This document shows positions 33,267 to 41,213 of a stretch of 46,439 bases of DNA, piece after piece. The notes beneath the pieces were generated by a model that searched no databases, was not told the origin of the DNA, and worked only from the letters and a program-made list of their open reading frames with translations. Position numbers and translations under genes: made by a program. This DNA is from Thermomicrobiales bacterium (GTDB lineage: Bacteria; Chloroflexota; Chloroflexia; Thermomicrobiales; UBA6265). The stretch lies in assembly GCA_020432165.1 (NCBI GenBank), contig JAGQGU010000021.1, forward strand, positions 1-46,439. The letters are read 5' to 3'. Each line of letters opens with the position of its first letter. Position 1 is the stretch's first letter.

Positions 33267-33956
33267 ATGCCGGATGAATGGATCGAACGATGGTTAGGCG
33301 CACCGAGGTTCGAGAAATACCTACTGCTTTGTGCAGGTGACAGGCAGAGAGCTCTGGCTACCTATGAGTGGAATGTCAGGCTGGGGCTGGCATTGATGCG
33401 TGATATCTGCCACTTTGAAATAGCTCTCCGAAATACATATGATCGTGCTATCTCTGAGAGATGGGACGGGACAGACCACTGGTTGCTTAGTGCAGATTCT
33501 CCGGTTTTTACTCGAAGCGAACACAATCGTTCCCTGCGAACCGATGCTCAGGATCTCAAGACGCGCTGGGCAATCAGTGACGCGATTGCGCGCGCTACAA
33601 CTGACGATTCCGTTGTCCCATCATCGGGCAAGATTGTGGCTGAGCTCACTCTCGGGGTGTGGTCGCGATTCACGTTCAAGCTTAACGAACACAATCTCTG
33701 GATTCCATATCTTCGATATGCTTTCCCGTTAGAGGTAACCAGAGATGATGTACATGGGAACGTTATGAGGATTCACGGTATGCGGAATCGTATCGCTCAT
33801 CACGAACCTGTATTTGGGATGACTCCTGGCTCCCGACAAAACCCTTATAGCGTGTATCTGGCCGTGGTCGAATCTCTTGGATGGTTTGCTCCCGAAGTTG
33901 CACAGCACGTGATTGCTGGATCTACGGTAGTTGATTTGATCAACAGAAAACCATAG
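33267..33956 (+). CDS. Abi-like HEPN protein (candidate abortive-infection RNase)
   Basis: A 229-residue protein of the Abi-like group (related to PF07751). It opens with WIERWLGAPRFEKYLLLCAGDRQRALATYEWNVRLGLALM and HFEIALRNTYDRA, and ends with the HEPN signature MRNRIAHHEPVF: Arg173-x4-His178, the ribonuclease site of these families. Base composition is lower in GC than the neighbours. No ribosome site is evident before the ATG (AAAACAAA), and a CGGGG/CCCCG hairpin (33237-33256) stands just upstream, so expression may be low or conditional. No antitoxin is adjacent. Phage defence is the family's usual role; here it is inferred. Confidence 0.75.
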   Translation: MPDEWIERWLGAPRFEKYLLLCAGDRQRALATYEWNVRLGLALMRDICHFEIALRNTYDRAISERWDGTDHWLLSADSPVFTRSEHNRSLRTDAQDLKTRWAISDAIARATTDDSVVPSSGKIVAELTLGVWSRFTFKLNEHNLWIPYLRYAFPLEVTRDDVHGNVMRIHGMRNRIAHHEPVFGMTPGSRQNPYSVYLAVVESLGWFAPEVAQHVIAGSTVVDLINRKP

Positions 33957-36780: not shown

Positions 36781-36807
36781 ACAACGCAAGAGCGGTGAAG
36801 CTGATCC

Positions 36808-36905
36808 CTTATCTCGCAGATACATCTGCCGGAGTTGGCACCTTGGTGATTGTCACCAGGTTGCCGGGCTTCACAGGGCCGAATCCCTCCACCTCTCTGG
36901 ATAAG
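36808..36905 (-). ncRNA. SAM-I (S-box) riboswitch
   Basis: On the minus strand the aptamer core reads CTTATCCAGAGAGGTGGAGG, then CTGTGAAGCCCGGCAACC, AAGGTGCCAACTCC and closing GAGATAAG. P1 is CTTATC with GATAAG; the kink-turn and the GCCCGGCAACC internal loop match the S-box consensus. It governs metX and, through read-through, metY, switching off when S-adenosylmethionine is plentiful. Confidence 0.95.
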
Positions 36906-36926
36906 GTCATTCAGTTGTTAGCGGCG

Positions 36927-36956: not shown

Positions 36957-37103
36957 GCGCGAGATATATTTGTGTTTTTCGCCCTGTCAGGATTTCGTTT
37001 CGGTTTGAGCCAAGACATTATTGCGATGGTGTAATTGTTGTGAGTACAGGACGCATCCAGATGCGATCGCCAGAGATTCGTATATCAAAGGAGAATGGTC
37101 ATC

Positions 37104-38657
37104 ATGACGGTTAGTATCTCTGAACTTCCATTTCTCGAACTGCTAAGGTCCGTTATTGTGGAGCCTGATCCATATAGCGAAGATGATCATCGTTGCATGG
37201 GATATATGAGTGTGATCCCATCAGATATTCTCTCTTCTGACTTCGAGAGCGGCTTGATACTTGGTCGTGTCTCTGATCGCTTGTTTCGGCAGTGCCTAGC
37301 CGGAATGGAGGCAGCGAATGAGGACGGAGATCTTGAATATATGTCCCCGCGCGACATCGAGAAAATACTATGGCGCTTGGTGTGTGAAGTATGGACAAAT
37401 AGGAACTCGTTGGATGTTTGCAAACTGACTGATCGAATTGATGCTTTCGTGGGAGAACACTCAAAACCCCAGGAGGAGTGGACTGTGCTCTGGGAGATAG
37501 ACTTCCTAGAGTTGTCGGAGCCCTTGAACGTAGAAGAAGTCACAATTATGTCACTTACCGGTGATATGTTGTCAGGGTTCCGATGGGCAGATGAACTCCG
37601 GTTGTTTGGACTTGATGAGACACTCAGGGGCTCTGCTTTCGCACGCGCAACGGTTCTAGCAGGATCGCATAAGACGGCTCTTCTACGAGCGAAGCCCGTG
37701 ATAGATGACGCTCTAGATATATTGCGGGTCACTTTCTCATATGCGAGGTATTTACCTTCCTTCCAAAAGCTGTATCGTCGCGGTATGCGCTATTTCGCCT
37801 ATCCATCTTCCATTCCAACTGAAGGTACTATTGGGATGGAATCGGTAAATCTGGAGTCGGTACTAGGAATATCTGGCGATATGCGGACTCTGGTCGATAC
37901 TCAACTAAGAACGTTCGCACCCATATTCGAGAGGTCAATGCCGGAAGCCATCCGTGAGCCATTGTGGCGATCACTGACGTTGATAGGCAGAAGTATGACT
38001 AGAAGCGATCCTGACTCCCAGATACTTGACCTATGCTCTGCCCTCGAATCAGTCCTATGTACCGCAACTGACCCCCTGAAAGCTCAACGAATCACGTTGC
38101 GGTATATGCTCATGGGTTTTGATCTAGACAAAGCCGTATACGCGAACCGCTCGTTTGGTGTTTACGATGTATACCTAATGAGAAATGACATAATACACGG
38201 GTCGCGACGTCGTGTCAGTTCCAGCCAGGATTCTTTCTTGCTTCGCGGTGTAGCGAAAGAGACTGTCGAGTGGCTACTTGAACTATCAAAGAAGTACCCT
38301 GAGGCATCTCGACTAGATCAGCTATTTGAGGTAGTTGAGAGAGTCGAGTCCTTGGAGACCATAATTCAGTTTATAGAGTCTCATTTGTCTTCGACTCAAC
38401 AAGCTTCCAAACCGGTACGCCAACTTGCGGTATGGTGGCTAGAGCGCGCCCGACTCCGTGCTTTCTGTCAGGAACAAAGCCTCGTAGTGCGTGAGTATGA
38501 CGTAAGTCGCGATTATGAGGTTTTGGTATACCCATGTGGGATCAAGCTGAAACGAGCGAGAGCAGAAGGGAAAACCAGTCAGATCCTGAACAGTGATCCA
38601 GCGGAGGCGCACAGACTAATGCTTGAGCAACTCAAGACACAGATTGCGACCGACTGA
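37104..38657 (+). CDS. ApeA-like HEPN protein (candidate phage-defence RNase)
   Basis: A 517-residue protein of unknown family by name, but with the shape of ApeA-like HEPN proteins: a long N-terminal part (about 290 residues, mixed strands, EEWTVLWEIDFLELSEPLNVEEVTI) and a C-terminal helical domain with SQILDLCSALESVLC and the signature YLMRNDIIHGSRRR, in which Arg360-x4-His365 is the HEPN ribonuclease pair. The ATG at 37104 has AAAGGAG 10 bases upstream; an ATG at 37095 is too close to it. Codon use is rich in ATA, CTA and AGA and the GC content is clearly lower than next door, a sign of transfer. It stands alone, opposite the metX promoter. Confidence 0.72.
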   Translation: MTVSISELPFLELLRSVIVEPDPYSEDDHRCMGYMSVIPSDILSSDFESGLILGRVSDRLFRQCLAGMEAANEDGDLEYMSPRDIEKILWRLVCEVWTNRNSLDVCKLTDRIDAFVGEHSKPQEEWTVLWEIDFLELSEPLNVEEVTIMSLTGDMLSGFRWADELRLFGLDETLRGSAFARATVLAGSHKTALLRAKPVIDDALDILRVTFSYARYLPSFQKLYRRGMRYFAYPSSIPTEGTIGMESVNLESVLGISGDMRTLVDTQLRTFAPIFERSMPEAIREPLWRSLTLIGRSMTRSDPDSQILDLCSALESVLCTATDPLKAQRITLRYMLMGFDLDKAVYANRSFGVYDVYLMRNDIIHGSRRRVSSSQDSFLLRGVAKETVEWLLELSKKYPEASRLDQLFEVVERVESLETIIQFIESHLSSTQQASKPVRQLAVWWLERARLRAFCQEQSLVVREYDVSRDYEVLVYPCGIKLKRARAEGKTSQILNSDPAEAHRLMLEQLKTQIATD

Positions 38658-40337: not shown

Positions 40338-41213
40338 CTATGGAAGCTGCATTTCGCCTGGAAGCTCGCCGCGTTCCATCGCCGCCAGCCATGCACTCAC
40401 ACTCTCGTCCCACTGTGCCGGATAGGTGAAGCCCTGTGCATCGCCGACCGCTACTGCTATTTGCCGGAAGAGTATCGTGATCGCATGGATCGCGCGCCAG
40501 ATATCGTCGCGGTCTGCATGCGGATAGGTCGCGCACACTTGCGCGAAATCCTCCGCAGAGAGCAGATCACCGAGAAACTTGCCCTGCTTACCGATACTGA
40601 CGCGCCAATCGTGCCGCATACCGGTATACCAACCCAACATCTCCATCAGCATATCCCGCACCGGCGATTCGAGACTCGAAACCGCCATCGGATACTGACC
40701 GCGTGCGTTCGCCTTGGCGACATTGTTCAGACACCACCAGAACTCATTGCAGCAGGCGAGATACTCGTTCTCGGTTGGTGGTTTGTGCCAGAAGGTTGCG
40801 CCGGACGAGATGTGATCCGTTGGCAGCAATCCATCTTTATCCAGCAATACACGATGAAGATCGTCTTCCATAAACCTGTCAAGACATATGGTGATGGCCT
40901 GTATGCCCAGATCAATTCGGATGCCGGAGTCAAGAATCATAAGCCATGCATAACCCAGCTTCCCGTCCTCTTCCTGGCCCCAGCCATACTCTGGTTTGTC
41001 TGGTTCCTGTACCATAGCGGGTTTGCCGATGTTATCGATCCAGCTTTGGTCCGAGATGAAAACGGTGGGATCATCCACCACGAATACGACGTCATAATCC
41101 TGAAAAGGATCGGGTGCCACGGACGGATCTGTGCGCGATCCTCCCAAATACACCGCCCGGATGCGATCTTCGTTTCTGGCATAGCCGAGAATGTGATTGA
41201 GGAATCCGCCCAC
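40338..41213 (-). CDS. Aminoglycoside 6-adenylyltransferase-like nucleotidyltransferase
   Basis: A 291-residue protein of the ANT(6)/AadE family. The N-terminal ILGYARNEDRIRAVYLGGSRTD, then QDYDVVFVVDD, gives the nucleotidyltransferase site (GS, DxD-like acidic pair). LGYAWLMILDSGIRIDLGI carries the third acidic residue, and the C-terminal helical part ends in MERGELPGEMQLP. Environmental members may have other small-molecule substrates; drug modification cannot be claimed. Starts with GTG at 41213, AGGAG 10 bases upstream. Single gene, divergent from the Fes-like esterase. Confidence 0.85.
   Translation of the reverse strand: MGGFLNHILGYARNEDRIRAVYLGGSRTDPSVAPDPFQDYDVVFVVDDPTVFISDQSWIDNIGKPAMVQEPDKPEYGWGQEEDGKLGYAWLMILDSGIRIDLGIQAITICLDRFMEDDLHRVLLDKDGLLPTDHISSGATFWHKPPTENEYLACCNEFWWCLNNVAKANARGQYPMAVSSLESPVRDMLMEMLGWYTGMRHDWRVSIGKQGKFLGDLLSAEDFAQVCATYPHADRDDIWRAIHAITILFRQIAVAVGDAQGFTYPAQWDESVSAWLAAMERGELPGEMQLP

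Follow-up and report, generated by a model that had tools for sequence, protein, structure and literature searches.

The gene at 37104-38657 (+) of the window, a 46,439-nucleotide stretch of DNA belonging to a 105-contig draft genome of a Thermomicrobiales bacterium, encodes a protein that is best read, on sequence comparison, as a distant relative of the Escherichia coli ApeA proteins in a compact and uncatalogued branch. We consider it probable that the gene was acquired horizontally and by itself makes up an anti-phage system of the ApeA kind, in which a sensor is joined to a HEPN RNase and which acts by abortive infection. A published account presents ApeA as a HEPN defence system (PMC7699616), the E. 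coli ApeA being the system of Gao et al. 2020. If the proposed assignment is true, catalogues of defence genes now lack an entire branch of ApeA-like HEPN proteins.

The longest frame of the gene opens at 37095 and would yield 520 aa. Since a Shine-Dalgarno-like AAAGGAG (37087-37093, +) lies at a fitting spacing, 10 nt before the ATG at 37104, the latter is the better start, and the single 517-residue gene given in the preliminary description of this DNA stands as reported. Residue numbers used here (R363, H368, E318, R336, Y360) are counted from 37095, and the H365 of that description corresponds to H368. Its remark that codon use is AT-rich against the neighbours was likewise confirmed: the gene has 48.7% GC and 48.8% GC3, as against about 53-60% GC in most of its neighbours, and it ranks last of the 42 non-overlapping ORFs of the window both in GC and in codon-usage score. 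The protein can be divided into an N-terminal region, a putative sensor (residues 4-250; 37104-37844, +), where the match to a profile made from distant members begins at residue 63; a C-terminal helical region, the putative HEPN RNase domain (residues 263-430; 37881-38384, +); and a C-terminal extension (residues 453-520; 38451-38654, +), which in the alignment is absent from the closest relative.

A profile built from two congeneric proteins led to five further members in Chloroflexota genomes, and profile searches placed the wider family in 22 of the 400 Chloroflexota genomes sampled. When the query and its closest relative were left out, the resulting profile recovered the query with an E-value of 9.9e-36 over residues 63-430 (the best of 999 shuffles gave 0.24), so that the relation spans both halves of the protein; the N-terminal half is conserved among the members, as would suit a sensor. 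Searches with the protein itself against plasmids, phages, viral contigs and named genomes returned no match, and it was the profile searches of whole genomes that worked.

As to the relation to ApeA, the two-sequence profile alone found nothing in the PDB, and the link therefore depends on the family profile. Against all PDB sequences, the seven-member profile ranked Ec2ApeA (E 1e-5) and Ec3ApeA (E 3.5e-5) first, while the 20-member profile retrieved all four E. coli ApeA proteins (Ec1-Ec4, 9HX series) with a best E-value of 9e-7, the next match, and the first that was not ApeA, lying at E 1.1. The profile of the C-terminal half again matched Ec1-4 ApeA (best E 3.8e-8), and the family is thus significantly related in sequence to characterised ApeA proteins. 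The N-terminal half behaved differently: its profile, searched alone, gave neither ApeA nor any other match in the PDB, whereas the full-length comparison aligned part of the N-terminal region to Ec3ApeA. The preliminary description had stated that the N-terminal part matched nothing recognisable, which agrees with this result.

Its assignment of the protein to an ApeA-like family is supported, in that ApeA proteins are the sole PDB entries that the family profile brings below E 1. The window protein itself matches no Pfam, PADLOC or NCBIfam model, which counts against reading it as an ApeA-type defence system. With the PADLOC models it gave no match up to E 10, one distant relative touching Cas13-ApeA at 0.0023; the Pfam cut-off was reached by none of the scanned family members, and the NCBIfam models matched none of 20. 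Single members, when searched with their C-terminal halves, gave weak matches to four different Pfam HEPN families, among them HEPN_Apea (PF18739), for which the best member match was E 0.13 at full length (one A2 member) and 0.034 with the C-terminal half. The window protein showed no match to PF18739, and so did not reach its curated cut-off; hhalign against four Chloroflexota PF18739 proteins gave nothing either, a template of only four sequences making this weak evidence of difference. Fragments of Ec2ApeA, copied from an alignment, matched the same model only weakly (E 0.093), so that E. coli ApeA may be poorly captured by Pfam HEPN_Apea itself. AlphaFold gave no usable model, either from two sequences (mean pLDDT 39) or from four sequences for the C-terminal half (mean pLDDT 47), and Foldseek and VIA-align 2 returned unrelated helical proteins for the latter; the input model being of low confidence, the absence of a HEPN match in these fold searches says nothing.

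The R-x4-6-H pattern of the HEPN superfamily is present here as RNDIIH (residues 363-368; 38181-38198, +). An R-x4-H motif occurs once in the protein, and on its own it means little, because 42% of composition shuffles also contain one; the longer pattern Y..R....HG is less common, appearing in 0.12% of shuffles. In the alignment of 20 relatives, which share 13-35% identity with the window protein, R363 and H368 do not vary, and conservation reaches at least 90% at E318, R336 and Y360. E318, which is Asp in two of the 20, belongs to the ALESVL block (38040-38057, +) and precedes R363 by 45 residues; the corresponding distance is 37-46 residues in all 20 aligned members. The motif is taken as real because R, H, Y and E are conserved in these relatives beyond what chance would give. 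Both the RNDIIH signature and the ALESVL block ahead of it, as first described, are therefore upheld, the former by conservation rather than by the motif as such. The same invariance bears on whether the protein might adopt a HEPN fold and lack RNase activity, serving for example as a pure nucleotide- or RNA-binding sensor. Some HEPN families have indeed lost the motif (PMC3710099), and RNase activity is only predicted here; yet Arg and His were retained in 20 of 20 relatives while the remainder of the sequence diverged to 13-35% identity, and we regard loss of catalysis as very improbable.

Comparison with known systems helps to place the protein. Like E. coli ApeA, it is a single chain in which an N-terminal region comes ahead of a HEPN part, putative here, at the C-terminus, and the ALE/AIE block and the Y..R....H block come in the same order. 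It differs in its length (517 aa, compared with 593-619 aa), in the spacing of the two blocks, which in Ec2ApeA lie at 318-386 and 491-556, with an E-to-R distance of well over 100 instead of 45, in an N-terminal region that is not recognisably related when searched alone, and in escaping detection by PADLOC. With Pfam HEPN_Apea (PF18739) and the ApeA/BMEI1217 family (Anantharaman et al. 2013) it shares the R-x4-H motif and, ahead of the HEPN part, an N-terminal domain of about 300 aa, a domain that is beta-rich in that family (PMC3710099); it differs in the lack of matches to the PF18739 model and to the four proteins noted above. By description, Tha from Staphylococcus aureus prophages is also similar, being a stand-alone defence protein with a C-terminal HEPN domain and an RN-x3-H type motif, but it has 301 aa and is switched on by phage tail proteins (PMC11087260). 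In Tha, the motif R265NSIMH270 is the demonstrated RNase centre, active protein degrades RNA and the H270A change abolishes protection (PMC11087260).

By analogy with such proteins, we infer a HEPN fold, dimerisation, RNase activity, an infection-derived trigger and phage protection for the window protein. The N-terminal half, of about 250 residues, would detect some sign of infection, and this detection would free or assemble the C-terminal HEPN domain. R363 and H368, paired across a dimer, would then cleave RNA of the cell, the probable targets being tRNA or other RNAs of the translation apparatus, and growth would stop before the phage multiplies, that is, by abortive infection. HEPN RNases are known to work as dimers, with Arg and His situated in the cleft (PMC11087260). 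Deoxydinucleotides activate ApeA, according to the title of a preprint (2026.01.26.701840, via PMC13405049). The trigger here may differ, since the N-terminal half cannot be recognised as the one found in E. coli ApeA. A wider proposal, that the family forms an uncatalogued, compact, ApeA-like defence branch of patchy occurrence in Chloroflexota and that the N-terminal region common to its members responds to a trigger other than that of E. coli ApeA, is put forward tentatively and stands somewhat short of an even chance. Because the N-terminal regions differ, comparison with E. coli ApeA could reveal the part that reads the signal.

On one side of the gene is metX and on the other an S66-peptidase-like gene; the names metX, metY, metH and S66 peptidase come from inspection by eye and not from models. 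Its immediate neighbours are metabolic genes and not a defence island, which counts against a defence role. In a congener (G003) whose DNA is about 82% identical over the stretch, blastn synteny showed the region to be collinear and the segment 36944-38704, which holds the gene, to be missing, with 131 bp at the same site. Among the three other sampled congeners, one (G002) carries a relative, of 34% identity, and among 158 genomes of the class 2 have such a gene, its own included. Each species was represented by a single genome, and several of the relatives are incomplete; some absences may therefore be data gaps. The empty site in G003 was read directly and is unaffected by incompleteness. 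Patchy presence, together with an empty site in a close relative, marks the gene as accessory and probably acquired, as the preliminary description had supposed, and it is not a core gene of all relatives. The edges of the insert showed no clear duplicated target site.

The same distribution could reflect an old, vertically inherited gene that was lost from most relatives and drifted towards AT. An empty site alone cannot separate loss from gain, and the 34%-identical relative in the same genus speaks for such a history. The two congeneric copies, however, occupy different loci, on the metX side here and 3' of metH in G002; the sites are empty or differently filled in other congeners, and the composition is atypical. 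Vertical descent is accordingly judged unlikely, and recent acquisition is preferred. A connection with methionine genes was also considered, given metX at this locus and metH in G002. Within this genus the region 3' of metH seems to be a variable site: it holds a PIN/AbrB-like pair, by eye, in G000 (L121, C39), an AbrB-like gene in G003 (L123, C28), and the HEPN relative followed by an uncharacterised phrog_34615 gene in G002 (L003 1643-3945).

The surroundings of the relatives bear on a further alternative, namely that the protein is a HEPN RNase used as a stress or toxin protein, for growth control or maintenance of an element, and not as a phage-triggered defence. HEPN proteins do serve other intragenomic conflicts and RNA processing (PMC3710099), and the metabolic setting of the gene, like the position of its closest relative between metH and the phrog_34615 gene, would suit such a function. 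Against it, the neighbours differ among the relatives read, with no conserved partner gene, and the nearest characterised relatives are the anti-phage ApeA proteins; we give this reading a minor, though not negligible, chance, and retain ApeA-type defence as the better account. Other relatives have neighbours linked to defence or to mobile elements, which speaks for a defence role. One (G188) is found 1.1 kb from a CD-NTase whose match to CdnC of the E. coli MS115-1 CBASS has an E-value of 2.7e-146, and another (G494) follows a C5 cytosine methyltransferase (E 9e-20 to HhaI) at a distance of 0.8 kb, with GIY-YIG-like and transposase-like genes nearby, by eye. Also by eye, SIR2-like and KAP-like genes occur near a third (G276), and on a viral contig (L053, 1-2277) an integrase-like gene directly precedes the family member.

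Several other features were observed in the window and in the family. A second HEPN gene, of the Abi_2/AbiD type (33267-33956, +; Pfam Abi_2 E 8.9e-6, above the cut-off), lies 3.1 kb away beyond metY-metX, so that two HEPN genes flank this pair. It has the second-lowest codon-usage score of the 42 ORFs and resembles the ApeA-like gene in its superfamily, its low GC and its absence from the same site in G003, where about 320 bp replace its segment; it differs in belonging to another HEPN family and in its length of 229 aa. Ahead of metX there is a SAM riboswitch (36806-36907, -; Rfam RF00162, 84 bits), and a promoter-like TTGACA-18-TACAAT (36956-36927, -) is situated right at the edge of the insert. 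An aminoglycoside 6-adenylyltransferase-like protein, identified by eye, is encoded at 40338-41213 (-). Finally, two relatives of about 610-640 aa (L027 1075-2988, +; L029 329-2167, +) carry a second R-x4-H near the C-terminus (FRNGIVHGG and FRNGILHGG, respectively), so that a single chain of these proteins may contain two HEPN domains.
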